Source: a virus
IMG/VR virus record: IMGVR_UViG_3300022924_000031
Location: 1-23,452 of that record
Strand: one strand, 5' to 3'
Length of the DNA stretch: 23,452 bases
The notes beneath the pieces are model-generated. The model did no database searches. It saw only the letters and a list, made by a program, of their open reading frames with translations, and was not told where the DNA came from. Made by a program: the position numbers and the translations under genes. This document shows, one piece after another, positions 2,321 to 23,452 of the stretch; the first letter of the stretch is position 1; each line of letters begins with the position of its first letter.

Positions 2321-3403
2321 ATGAAAGATTTTATTGGCTTCATTAAGAAAATCGTCTTCATCAACCAAGATGAGGCGACGCCTGAACCCCCTATTCCTGC
2401 GCCGCCCGGGCCATACGATCGGCTTATCAATCCGTCCGACGGTTTGAACGGGTACACGACGCCGTACAATTCGCCAACCGGCGCGATGATTGTACGAATC
2501 ACCGGCCGCAACAACGCGAACTCAGCCCCCGGCATCACCGTAACGTGGAATGGCGCGCCGCTTACTGTTGGCGCCGAAGTCCACGACTCGACGACCGGCC
2601 ATATGTTCGCTTGGTTCGGCATTATCAAGGGCGGCGCTACCGGTACAAACAACCTGGCCATAACCTGCACAGGCTCGTGCGGTCTAGCCGCCCTGCGCAT
2701 CGGCGATATCCTCGACTACAGCAGTCTCGGCGCCGTGCAGAGCTTTATCGGCGCATCCGGGCTTATCGATCTCACGATCACTCCGCAGACGCCAGGCGCT
2801 AGCGACCTATCGCAGCAAGCCGCATGGTTAGATGAGCGAGCGTTTCCGGTTTCGCAATTCTATGACGCCGTAACCCAGTGGCAGACGTGGCAAGTTCAGA
2901 CCGGCCCAGAGCTTATCGTTAACGGTGACTTCAGTTCCGCGACTGGCTGGACTCTTGGCCGCGGATGGTCGATCACGGGCGGCCAAGCGGTTCACATCGG
3001 CAACTTCGACCCTCTGACGCGGGCCTTCTCAATCACAGAAGGCCGATACCTTTCAGCCTATGACGTGACGGCTATAACGCCGCCGAATCTTGCAGTCTCG
3101 TGCTGGCGCTACGGCACAGGCCAAACGCAGTCAGCCGGCCAACAACGAACGGCAGCTGGAAGCTATGCTCAGATAGTGCAGACGCCCGGCGCTGTGAACG
3201 GCTACGGTATTTCTTCTGGTGTCGGCGATCTGACAGTGGATAACCTGTCACTGAAGGCTATTACTGGGGGTATGGCAGCATGGTTCGGCCGGCAAGTGAC
3301 TTATGGCGCCCAAATGAACCTTACCTACGAAGCGTCAAACTACAACGACGACCCGCAGGGCGTAGTTCTCCTGGTCGAAATCAAGGGGCTAGTACAGCCT
3401 TAA
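2321..3403 (+). CDS. Putative head decoration/fibre protein with nested carbohydrate-binding-type domain
   Basis: 360 aa, probably on the virion surface. The start is ATG 2321, with GGAAG 8 nt upstream; GTG 2291 is also in frame but lacks a ribosome site and lies in a hairpin arm. The order is: a short amphipathic/basic N-terminus (MKDFIGFIKK), a proline-rich linker (PEPPIPAPPGP), and a beta-rich domain with Ig-like spacing. A segment from about residue 197 to 314 begins ELIVNGDFSSATGW and ends VDNLSLKAI, the usual frame of CBM-like jelly-roll domains in phage adhesins. After it, the outer fold seems to resume (MAAWFGRQVTYG, EASNYNDDPQGVVLLVEI), so the jelly roll looks inserted into the outer domain. 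The capsid-to-portal position favours a head decoration role. Function is by analogy; no enzymatic motif is seen. Confidence 0.6.
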   Translation: MKDFIGFIKKIVFINQDEATPEPPIPAPPGPYDRLINPSDGLNGYTTPYNSPTGAMIVRITGRNNANSAPGITVTWNGAPLTVGAEVHDSTTGHMFAWFGIIKGGATGTNNLAITCTGSCGLAALRIGDILDYSSLGAVQSFIGASGLIDLTITPQTPGASDLSQQAAWLDERAFPVSQFYDAVTQWQTWQVQTGPELIVNGDFSSATGWTLGRGWSITGGQAVHIGNFDPLTRAFSITEGRYLSAYDVTAITPPNLAVSCWRYGTGQTQSAGQQRTAAGSYAQIVQTPGAVNGYGISSGVGDLTVDNLSLKAITGGMAAWFGRQVTYGAQMNLTYEASNYNDDPQGVVLLVEIKGLVQP

Positions 3404-19816: not shown

Positions 19817-20211
19817 TGGAATGGGTCAATAGTTATCTGTGTTGCGCGTACGAGGATGGCGCACGGGGTCCCGACCGGTACGACTGCTGGGGCCTGGTTA
19901 GACACGTCAGACACGCTGAACTAGGCAAGAGGCTCCTGGCCGAGTACGGCAGCCTGCGCAATAAAGACCCACGAGAATTCACGCGTGCCTACGAGGAAGA
20001 ATCCTCCGTAATGGAGTTGTGCCAGCCCGAGCACGGAGCCATTGCCGCTGTTATGATTGGGCGTATCTGCACACATGTAGCACTGGTCGTAGAGTCCCTT
20101 GACGGATTGAGGATCCTTGAGATAAACCCAACGCGCGGCCCTCGCTTCCTTCCCCTACACAAATGGTTGCGTGACCATTCGACGGTCACTTTCCACAGAG
20201 ATCGCCCATGA
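19816..20211 (+). CDS. NlpC/P60 family peptidase (tail tip, gpK-like)
   Basis: 131 aa with a GTG start overlapping the DUF1833 stop. The catalytic Cys lies in YDCWGLVRH (C24), the His in ICTHVALVVES (H87), and the third polar position is in LEINPTRGP (about N104), the arrangement of NlpC/P60 gamma-D-glutamyl-diaminopimelate peptidases. In tail tips these enzymes cut peptidoglycan cross-links to help DNA entry. It lacks the JAB/Mov34 half found in lambda gpK, so it is the peptidase-only version. It overlaps the gpJ-like gene by ATGA. Confidence 0.92.
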   Translation: MEWVNSYLCCAYEDGARGPDRYDCWGLVRHVRHAELGKRLLAEYGSLRNKDPREFTRAYEEESSVMELCQPEHGAIAAVMIGRICTHVALVVESLDGLRILEINPTRGPRFLPLHKWLRDHSTVTFHRDRP

Positions 20212-22922
20212 TCGAAATCTACGCAAGCCGCCTTTCAGACGAAGGGAAGGAAACCTATCACATTCGCAAACCACAACTGGTCAGCGAGTGGTTGTACCGG
20301 CATGGGATATCCCGAAAGACCGATCTTAGTAAACTCTCCGTAAGTCTGTACCTGAACGGCGAGATGCTAATTCCGCGCCAATGGCTAAGCACCTTAATCA
20401 CTGCCGCCGATACTGTTGAAATCTACAGAGAGCCAAAGGGCACTGACCCGTTTTCAATCACGTTCGCATTGATCGCAGGCGCGAAGGCTGTGCTTGGGCT
20501 GCTGATGCCAAAACTGCCGGGGATCAACCAAGGGAGCGGCGGTCCGCAAGGTGAAGGGTTGGGGCAGGGCAGCACGAAAGGCAATAAAGTAAAGATCAAT
20601 GATGTCCGGCCTGAACTCTTCGGGTACAACCCGCAGAGATATCCGGACTACTTGATGCCCCCGCGCAGCTACTACGCCGGCCCTCGCGAGCCACGTACAG
20701 AAATGTGTCTTAGCATCGGCCAGGGTTCGTATCAGATCAATTCAAACGAGGTGAAGACGGGGGAAACTCCGTTGACCACTTTGGGTACGGACGCCGTGTT
20801 CCACATCTACGGCCCCGGTGCGAACATCTTTAACGACCCCGCTCATTTCTTCTGGTACACCGCTCCAGAGGTAGGGGCCAGCAACACAGGTGCTAACGGT
20901 CTTGAGCTGACAACCGGCAGCGACCTTACATCACGGGCGACAGCGTCTGTGTTCTCCTTCAGCGGTGACACCGTGACCATTCCTAGTGGCGCTGGCGTGT
21001 TCCCCACCGACTGGCCTATAGGCATCTTGGTAAACGTCGCAGCGCCGTACAACTACACCGTAGCAGACGGCACAGGGGTTGGCGGGCGTGACGTTATAAG
21101 CGGACCGATTGCGCAGCATCATTTTCTGGTTGGCGATCAAATCCAGATAACAGGCGATAACCAAGGCTTCTACACAGTCACCGCAGTAACGCCGACTACG
21201 CTTCAGGTTGACTATGACGGGGGCGCACCCGGCACCGGCCTTGTGATCGGCTCTGTCGTGATGGCGATGTCGTATCGCAACATGCAATTTCGGATATTGA
21301 ACATCACCACCAACACCATGCAGGTCAAGCGTCTGCGCCCTGACGGTACTGATGACAACTCCTGGCCAGGGTGGGACGCCTTGTCGTCCAACGTCGCACA
21401 GGTGTTGCTCGACAGCTCCAACCAAGCGGCCGGCTACCGCGGACCTTTCCCGGCTTGCCCTGCTGGCGAATTGATCACGATGTTCGAAGTAGACGTGTTC
21501 TACCCAAGCGGGCTTGTGTTCCTCGATGCCAAAGGTAACTACAACTCGTTGACTGGTTTTCAGTCACTAGAGTGGCGCGACAAAGCACTGGGCGGGGCGT
21601 GGAACGTTTCAACTGTGCAGGCTACGTCAAACAACCTCGACGCGCAGGGCTACACGTATCAGGTCGCGTTGCCGTACCCGATGCGGCCTGAGGTCCGTAT
21701 GAAGAAAATCTTCGTGAACCAAGGCAGCGGCGACCCCGAGAAAGAACAAAACGACACGATGATGTGGCAACGTCTTAAGGGTCTGATGGTCTATTCGTCT
21801 CCTTCCGTATACGAAGGCTTGACGGTTATGACGCTCAACATACGCGGCGGTGATCGCATTTCTTCGCAAAGCGAAAGCCTAGTTAACTTGGCGTGTACAA
21901 GGATCTTGCCGGTGTTGCGAGGCGGCGCGTGGCAGGCGCCACAAGCGACGCGCGAGATATCCGCAGCCGTAGGCCATATAATTCGTAGCGTAGGCTATAA
22001 CGACGTAACGGATATCGACCTGACCGAACTGCAACGCTTGGAGTCAACACGCTGGACGCCGCGCGGGGATACCTACGACCGAATTGTTAATGACTCTAAG
22101 ACCGTAAAGTCGAATGTGATAGACGCGCTCCAAGCCGGCTTCTCCGAACTGACCATCGATCGAGGCCTACTGGTACCAGTGCGCGACGAACCGCGCGGGC
22201 CAGCGTTCGACCATGTATACAACCCTCCTGTCATGCTGGAGCCGCTCCAGTACGACTTCGTTATGCCGGATCAGCCGGACGACTTCGACGGCGTGGACGT
22301 AGAATATTACGATCACATCACGCGCCAAGACGAAACGGTGCCATGCCGATTGCCGGGGGACACAGGCGAACGAGTGGAGAAAATAAAGATCGAGGGCGTC
22401 GGGGTAAGGTTCCGCGCTTGGCGTATCGGCATGCGCCGGCGCCGAGCCCACCTGTATCGCCAGCGGCAGTACAGCTTCAAGACAGAACTGGACGCGCTTA
22501 ACAGCGCATACTTCGACTACGTGGCCCTGGGCGTGGCCACGCCCGGCTACGGGCAAAGCGCTGAAGTTGTAGGGTACACACCTGGAACACCGGTCACGAT
22601 AGAGTCGTCCGAACCCCTGGACTGGTCTACCCCCGGACAATACAAAGTAGTTATCCGGCGCCTAGACGGTACGGCTTCGGGGCCGTACGTCGCAACCTAT
22701 GTTGACGACTACACGTTTACCATTCCTTCGCTTGATTTTGTGCCGAACGTGTCCGGTGAAATTGACACGCCACCGATCATACAATTCGGGCATGAATCTA
22801 CATGGGCGTTTCCTGCCCTCGTCACTGAAGTAAAACCGAGCGGCACGAAGTCATGCAGTGTAACGGCTGTCAACTATGACGTTCGGATGTACGCAGACGA
22901 CGACGCGTTCCCGCCGAGTTAA
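20208..22922 (+). CDS. Tail tip / central host-specificity protein, gpJ-like with gpI-like N-terminus
   Basis: 904 aa. The first ~80 residues (KLSVSLYLNGEMLIPRQWLS, ITAADTVEIYREPKG) resemble the small ubiquitin-like gpI/tail assembly domain. A hydrophobic stretch (FALIAGAKAVLGLLMPKLPG) and a glycine-rich linker lead to the tail-hub domain VRPELFGYNPQRYPDYLMPP with CLSIGQGSYQI, as in lambda gpJ-like and related central proteins. Later parts are RVLPVLRGGAWQ-type hub text (RILPVLRGGAWQ), YDRIVNDSKTVKSNVIDALQ, and fibronectin-like beta segments near the C-terminus (GTASGPYVATYVDDYTFTIP). It closes the tail tube and takes part in receptor recognition and ejection. The C-terminus is short, with no long fibre. 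Confidence 0.88.
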   Translation: MIEIYASRLSDEGKETYHIRKPQLVSEWLYRHGISRKTDLSKLSVSLYLNGEMLIPRQWLSTLITAADTVEIYREPKGTDPFSITFALIAGAKAVLGLLMPKLPGINQGSGGPQGEGLGQGSTKGNKVKINDVRPELFGYNPQRYPDYLMPPRSYYAGPREPRTEMCLSIGQGSYQINSNEVKTGETPLTTLGTDAVFHIYGPGANIFNDPAHFFWYTAPEVGASNTGANGLELTTGSDLTSRATASVFSFSGDTVTIPSGAGVFPTDWPIGILVNVAAPYNYTVADGTGVGGRDVISGPIAQHHFLVGDQIQITGDNQGFYTVTAVTPTTLQVDYDGGAPGTGLVIGSVVMAMSYRNMQFRILNITTNTMQVKRLRPDGTDDNSWPGWDALSSNVAQVLLDSSNQAAGYRGPFPACPAGELITMFEVDVFYPSGLVFLDAKGNYNSLTGFQSLEWRDKALGGAWNVSTVQATSNNLDAQGYTYQVALPYPMRPEVRMKKIFVNQGSGDPEKEQNDTMMWQRLKGLMVYSSPSVYEGLTVMTLNIRGGDRISSQSESLVNLACTRILPVLRGGAWQAPQATREISAAVGHIIRSVGYNDVTDIDLTELQRLESTRWTPRGDTYDRIVNDSKTVKSNVIDALQAGFSELTIDRGLLVPVRDEPRGPAFDHVYNPPVMLEPLQYDFVMPDQPDDFDGVDVEYYDHITRQDETVPCRLPGDTGERVEKIKIEGVGVRFRAWRIGMRRRRAHLYRQRQYSFKTELDALNSAYFDYVALGVATPGYGQSAEVVGYTPGTPVTIESSEPLDWSTPGQYKVVIRRLDGTASGPYVATYVDDYTFTIPSLDFVPNVSGEIDTPPIIQFGHESTWAFPALVTEVKPSGTKSCSVTAVNYDVRMYADDDAFPPS

Positions 22923-22929
22923 TTGTGCG

Positions 22930-22938
22930 TGGTATCAT
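22930..22938 (+). promoter_or_regulatory. Extended -10 promoter for the lysis genes
   Basis: TGGTATCAT (TG-n-TATCAT, 5/6 to TATAAT) followed by GGCCGAAAC, 26 nt before the holin-like ATG at 22964. The layout and downstream CCG...A resemble the late-type sites, with a one-base shift. No -35 is visible. Confidence 0.55.
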
Positions 22939-22966
22939 GGCCGAAACACATAGGGGTTAGGCCATG
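22936..22966 (+). promoter_or_regulatory. Inverted repeat masking the holin start codon
   Basis: CATGGCC (22936-22942) is the exact complement of GGCCATG (22960-22966), whose ATG is the holin-like start codon. The 17-nt loop holds the AGGGG ribosome site (22952-22956). The 5' arm overlaps the -10 element, so only transcripts started upstream would contain both arms. Confidence 0.6.
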
Positions 22967-23347
22967 CGGGATCAGTGCGAGACTTACGCATACCTTTGGG
23001 TTTGTGCTTTGCTAGCCGGGATGAATGGTTACGCCGCCGCCGGCGCCGCGATAGGTTGTTGCTTCTACCTGGCCGCGCCGAAAGCTACCTCGTTTCGGGA
23101 ACGATTTATGCTTACGCTGTTCTCATGGGGTATGGCCTACGGCGGCGGTGTCTATTTCTACGGCGGCGGTCCGCCATACGACGAGAAAGCATTGTTCGTA
23201 TCTGGGGCCATTGGTGCGCTTATCGCGGTCGTATTTACCGCTCTAGGCTATATGGTTGAGAAAGATGGCCCAGTGCCAGAGTGGATTAAGACAATCATCG
23301 GTCTCATTCCATTTTTCAAAAGCCGGGGTGGCAACGATGGAGCTTAA
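22964..23347 (+). CDS. Holin-like protein (three membrane segments)
   Basis: 127 aa. ATG 22964 has AGGGG 7 nt upstream. Three hydrophobic segments are visible: ~residues 10-40 (YLWVCALLAGMNGYAAAGAA), ~48-68 (FMLTLFSWGMAYGGGVYF) and ~76-98 (LFVSGAIGALIAVVFTALGY). A short basic, cytoplasm-type C-terminus (FFKSRGGNDGA) follows. Size, three spans, Gly/Ala-rich helices and position right after the tail genes fit a class I-type phage holin, which times lysis by forming membrane holes. The gene overlaps the next one by 11 nt. A specific Pfam holin family is not assigned with certainty. Confidence 0.75.
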   Translation: MRDQCETYAYLWVCALLAGMNGYAAAGAAIGCCFYLAAPKATSFRERFMLTLFSWGMAYGGGVYFYGGGPPYDEKALFVSGAIGALIAVVFTALGYMVEKDGPVPEWIKTIIGLIPFFKSRGGNDGA

Positions 23348-23452
23348 CGTGATTCTGCTTTGGGTAGAGTGCGTCATCCATTTCGCAACCTTCCTGATTC
23401 TTTTCGTCTACAACGGTTCCCACTCACGACAACGCTGGGGCGTCTCTATGCT
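23337..23452 (+). CDS. Second holin-like membrane protein (3' end outside window)
   Basis: Begins at ATG 23337, inside the end of the first holin-like gene in another frame, and runs open to the window edge. The visible 38 residues start with a hydrophobic segment (VILLWVECVIHFATFLILFV) and continue YNGSHSRQRWGVSM, resembling the N-terminus of small 3TM holins (Phage_holin_3_7 type: hydrophobic helix, then a SRHRxGVS-like turn). A two-component holin/antiholin or holin/pinholin pair is plausible. An endolysin would be expected downstream. Confidence 0.65.
   Translation, partial: MELNVILLWVECVIHFATFLILFVYNGSHSRQRWGVSM

Follow-up and report, generated by a model that had tools for sequence, protein, structure and literature searches.

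Complementarity between the discriminator of a lysis promoter and the holin ribosome site: probable masking of the holin start on read-through mRNA in a group of Pseudomonas-type phages

If a holin gene lies directly behind a tail gene on the same strand, how can its translation be kept from following the supply of tail mRNA? The question is raised by a viral stretch of 23,452 nucleotides, analysed over its whole length and referred to here as the window, at the end of which a J-like tail-tip gene is followed by a holin gene. No terminator-like site is listed between the two, and the J-like transcript would, as read from the sequence, run into the holin gene. The features concerned, all on the plus strand, are the following.

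20208-22922, plus strand: upstream J-like tail-tip gene (PHROG 469 tail protein, E 2e-217), with its stop codon at 22920-22922, 13 nt before the 5' arm
22930-22938, plus strand: extended -10 element TGGTATCAT (TG 22930-22931, hexamer TATCAT 22933-22938), without a -35
22936-22942, plus strand: 5' arm CATGGCC, made of the 3' half of the -10 plus the discriminator; exact complement of 22960-22966
22943-22947, plus strand: GAAAC, matching the A-rich AAAC of relatives, with the putative transcription start near 22944-22946
22952-22956, plus strand: Shine-Dalgarno (SD) sequence AGGGG, 7 nt before the ATG and in the hairpin loop on read-through RNA
22960-22966, plus strand: 3' arm GGCCATG, with the holin start codon inside; exact complement of the 5' arm
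22964-23347, plus strand: holin gene, the first of the lysis cassette (127-aa ORF; PHROG 198 holin, E 1.6e-5)
23337-23452, plus strand: second holin gene, start only (ATG 23337), continuing past the window end; the counterpart ORF in the relative L035 is PHROG 217 / PF05449

The window junction is taken to be the head of the lysis cassette because, in L035, the holin is followed by the second holin, a GH19 endolysin and Rz/Rz1, and the assignment to PHROG 198 draws both on the profile match and on this place in the cassette. The second holin start, which overlaps the end of the first holin gene and may be coupled to it in translation, also has strong upstream complementarity (-15.3 kcal/mol, best 16-mer). 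An intrinsic terminator at the window junction was considered and ruled out, as no T run follows the 3' arm and none is listed there.

Relatives were gathered from IMG/VR, GTDB genomes and phage records using the holin and J proteins, and 24 of the 25 distinct junctions carry an element of the form TGnTAnnnT ahead of the holin, the exception being L055 (CGTTATACT). Its inner positions vary among the relatives in the way known from sigma70 -10 elements; 5-8 nt further on, an A-rich AAAC is common. The window site TGGTATCAT is not listed by a sigma70 promoter scan that requires a -35. When J and the holin are separated by a tail-fibre gene, it is the holin that the element precedes, both in L024 and in the L070/L116 and L091/L115 contigs (TGTTAAACT), and no such element follows J in the latter contigs, nor in L092-L095, which carry related J genes in Pseudomonas genomes; the element is also found ahead of the Psp6 holin. 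This distribution speaks for a promoter proper to the lysis cassette, one that remains with it when a different gene lies upstream. No clear TGnTAnnnT precedes the holin in PPpW-3, Persinger, Lana, PMBT3, UAntarctica and AF, and these phages were omitted from the tests, a choice made on the promoter and not on the hairpin. With no -35, an extended -10 of this kind may have low activity, or may be active at any time.

The initial annotation had described an inverted repeat that locks the holin start, and its sequence details proved accurate: both arms and their coordinates are exact, the ATG (22964-22966) lies inside the 3' arm, the ribosome site is looped, with the SD in the loop, and the 5' arm, beginning at 22936, overlaps the TATCAT hexamer. 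The repeat can be extended to 10-nt arms with one mismatch (22936-22945 and 22957-22966), the 5' extension to 22945 being weaker, and in the predicted fold the loop is mostly single-stranded. Opening the start region is predicted to cost 12.6 kcal/mol on read-through RNA vs 4.1 kcal/mol on RNA begun at 22945, and these figures barely shift when the transcript starts 2 nt earlier or later. A seven-codon mini-ORF (22937-22960, MAETHRG), with its start in the 5' arm and its stop at the 3' arm, would be present on read-through RNA only.

These elements suggest a mechanism in which (i) the lysis cassette would be driven by its own sigma70-type extended -10 promoter, with a start at about 22945; (ii) the bases from the -10 to the start would also serve as one side, the 5' arm, of a hairpin that has the holin start codon in its 3' arm; (iii) read-through messages of the tail operon would hold both arms and thereby hide the holin start, while messages from the local promoter would be free of the 5' arm and translatable; and (iv) holin output, and hence lysis timing, would track the local promoter, whatever the level of tail mRNA. 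What the sequences themselves show is the two arms, the conserved promoter and, across the family, a position-specific pairing of discriminator with ribosome site; where transcription starts, how much tail mRNA reads through, and what follows for translation and lysis timing are the parts that we infer. That local messages are translatable and read-through messages masked is, in our judgement, the best account of the window lysis cassette and a probable one, argued from sequence.

The masking was evaluated in the relatives as the pairing energy between the -10/discriminator region and the ribosome site, the phage's own combination being compared with all between-phage swaps. Among 19 representatives less than 80% identical, own complementarity was -12.0 vs -8.7 kcal/mol for swaps (permutation P 5e-5), and discriminator shuffles gave z -5.7. 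The own-vs-swap signal persisted without the window (P 2e-4), among ten representatives below 70% identity (P 2e-4) and without the five strongest (P 0.013), and was modest inside the window's own holin family (P 0.018). The cost of opening the start region was likewise higher with the own leader, at z 9.2 vs random coding leaders and z 5.2 vs swapped leaders. In a 10-nt position scan from -56 to +13, own complementarity exceeded that of swaps only at the -10/discriminator; in a 6-nt scan the peak fell on the six bases after the -10, and the signal was absent four bases further on, past the predicted start. Scan windows further upstream in the same genomes gave no signal, which argues against an artefact of base composition.

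A second set of junctions was assembled once the pattern had been seen and the measure fixed, from new junctions that a final holin-alignment scan had brought in; a rule assigned their starts and -10 elements, and junctions resembling the first set were removed. In the resulting 14 junctions, which include L150, whose rule-assigned -10 is probably wrong, complementarity was -10.6 vs -8.6 kcal/mol (P 0.001), again with the peak at the discriminator. The masking reading of the initial annotation is thus upheld at the family level, where the conserved -10 moves with the lysis cassette and complementarity to the ribosome site is confined to the stretch between the -10 and AAAC in both sets; for the window phage itself, we consider masking likely on the same sequence comparisons.

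The stems themselves are not conserved. They take the following forms.

L038: ATCATGCGCAG/CTGCGCATGAT, 11 pairs
L055: about 14 pairs, locking the ATG
L024: ACCCCTGTCA/TGACAGGGGT, with the outer arm upstream of the -10
L101 (Psp6), L115, L119 and L121: TGCGCC/GGCGCA
L117: CATGCGTC/GGCGCATG
L120: CCTCCCC/GGGGAGG, vs CCTCG/CGAGG in L122
L174: CCCTTAGCGG/CCGCTAAGGG
L097: about 14 pairs, with the extended -10 itself as an arm

Because the stems differ in sequence between clades, what recurs is, on this comparison, the masking and not a motif. Accessibility in the first 26 junctions was mixed, with a very strong minority and several junctions without gain; the read-through leader gave none in L042, L054, L058, L060 and L079, and in L051, the closest sister clade of the window, 5 pairs are kept and the difference in opening cost is just 2.7 kcal/mol. 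The leader of L097 is among those with the longest stems found; there the holin frame (2944-3093, MVKETALIG...) closes after 50 codons, perhaps through a frameshift or a sequencing error. A long, nearly perfect inverted repeat, TGCTACACTACTACAAACACC ... GGTGTAGTAGTGTAGCA, was also noted at about 636-680 of L130 (G001:C1 about 46333), where it is intergenic and close to the L035 contig end.

The window hairpin can also be explained by chance, the promoter being real and the 7-bp repeat arising from a TATCAT -10 followed by GGCC, which gives CATGGCC, with the holin translated from both messages. A comparable arm (an exact match of at least 7 nt, upstream within 40 nt and overlapping the ATG) accompanies 14 of the 598 ATGs in the window (2.3%; 8/318 on the plus strand and 6/280 on the minus strand), and the sister clade L051 has lost two pairs. 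Taken by itself, the window hairpin is not significant in single-site folding against shuffles (z -1.0), and about 9% of random coding leaders have an opening cost at least as high (P 0.09, not significant); the single-site P is about 0.1. An Rfam search returned no match. The significance derives from the relatives, not from the window site. Against chance, the window discriminator outdoes 98% of its own shuffles (P 0.016) and the window's family has a strong, position-specific signal. Among the 21 gene starts tested in the window, the holin start gives the strongest fixed-window match (-13.1 kcal/mol, the next being -12.5). We regard a chance repeat as unlikely.

A second alternative accepts the hairpin and holds that read-through mRNA is translated anyway, because the lock could be opened by ribosomes that terminate at the J stop and then reinitiate, or by RNase cleavage within the A-rich loop, so that the hairpin would tune holin translation and not silence it. 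The 13 nt between the J stop and the 5' arm, the largely single-stranded loop and the mini-ORF overlapping the stem are all consistent with tuning. In the relatives, however, the spacing between the J stop and the arm is variable, the stop overlapping the -10 at one extreme and lying tens of bases away at the other, and, given the footprint of a ribosome at a stop codon, most of a hairpin so placed should stay free to refold. Tuning in place of silencing appears to us improbable to a marked degree. The idea that the inverted repeat works as DNA, as a repressor operator spanning the -10 and the start point, gains something from the arms flanking the predicted start in the window and in L038, but the arm sequences change from one clade to another, and the 3' half keeps to the SD or the ATG at varying spacing, which fits RNA masking and not one protein site, making an operator very improbable.

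Masking of the start codon is not the only form that the discriminator pairing takes. MR14 (L104) and L164/L165 have AGCCCCCG directly behind the -10 and, pairing with it, CGGGGGCTTTTT immediately ahead of the ATG; the two make up a hairpin of intrinsic-terminator form whose 5' arm lies in the discriminator of the lysis promoter. The sequence just upstream of the holin (about 1045-1096 in MR14, and in L164 and L165) reads TACACT AGCCCCC ... GGGGGCTTTTT ATG. Most of the 5' arm would be missing from RNA initiated at the predicted position, so that termination should be limited to upstream transcripts, with local ones passing; this would give equal insulation at the level of termination.

In phage T4, the start sites of gene e (lysozyme), soc, 49 and I-TevI are masked on upstream transcripts and free on transcripts from late promoters (PMC3014915). 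Those late promoters are of the form TATAAATA with gp55, the early transcripts being the masked ones (PMC3014915). The window leader resembles that of gene e in that (i) in T4, long upstream transcripts fold the SD and AUG of the lysis gene into a hairpin, and in the window the 3' arm GGCCATG covers the ATG with the SD in the loop; and (ii) leaders of a similar kind occur in T4-type relatives. A further likeness would hold if transcription begins where predicted: in T4, the local promoter occupies the region of the 5' strand, which local transcripts therefore lack, and in the window the arm at 22936-22942 lies in the -10 and discriminator, the family signal ending past the predicted start. The window leader differs in that (i) its promoter, TGGTATCAT (TGnTAnnnT in the relatives), is a sigma70-type extended -10 and not the late-type TATAAATA; (ii) the masked transcripts would be those of the tail operon, and the gene concerned encodes a holin; and (iii) the stem sequence changes from clade to clade among the relatives. 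The window leader is therefore filed as one that would work like T4 gene e but is not a member of the T4 gene e family, since its promoter is not of the T4 late type.

Two other systems are less close. At the lambda S holin, the sdi stem-loop at the start picks between two start codons on one message; the likeness is a stem-loop governing translation at a holin start, and the difference is that the window holin has a single start codon, hidden or free according to the origin of the message, with no second start codon nearby (MRDQCETYAYLWVCALLAGM, the next in-frame Met being residue 20). In E. coli pyrC, the nucleotide supply moves the start point of a single promoter, and the presence of a few 5'-end bases settles whether the SD is sequestered in a hairpin. 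The window shares this dependence on a few 5'-end bases, but the first base of its 5' arm, 22936, falls within the hexamer 22933-22938, a place at which its own promoter cannot initiate; because the arm lies partly in the -10, a small shift of the start cannot restore it, and gain or loss of the arm in the manner of pyrC is not found here.

For the broad group of Pseudomonas-type phages, we lean, by somewhat more than even judgement, towards a lysis promoter that serves as a read-through filter, such that only locally begun transcripts make holin, the discriminator being selected to pair with the ribosome site or, as in MR14 and L164/L165, to complete a terminator, and the pairing being reinvented in new sequences as the phages diverge. 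Literature searches, covering papers outside subscription, found no report of such masking for these phages. The comparison yields a sequence rule with which other genomes can be searched, namely complementarity of the discriminator to the ribosome site, and the insulation of lysis timing from structural-gene expression is now a question open to direct bench test. The holin is the gene that sets the moment of lysis, and masking of its start could help to time the bursting of the cell; if the reading is true, the trick known from T4 lysozyme would be a common, repeatedly rebuilt design that works with ordinary promoters and is applied to the holin.
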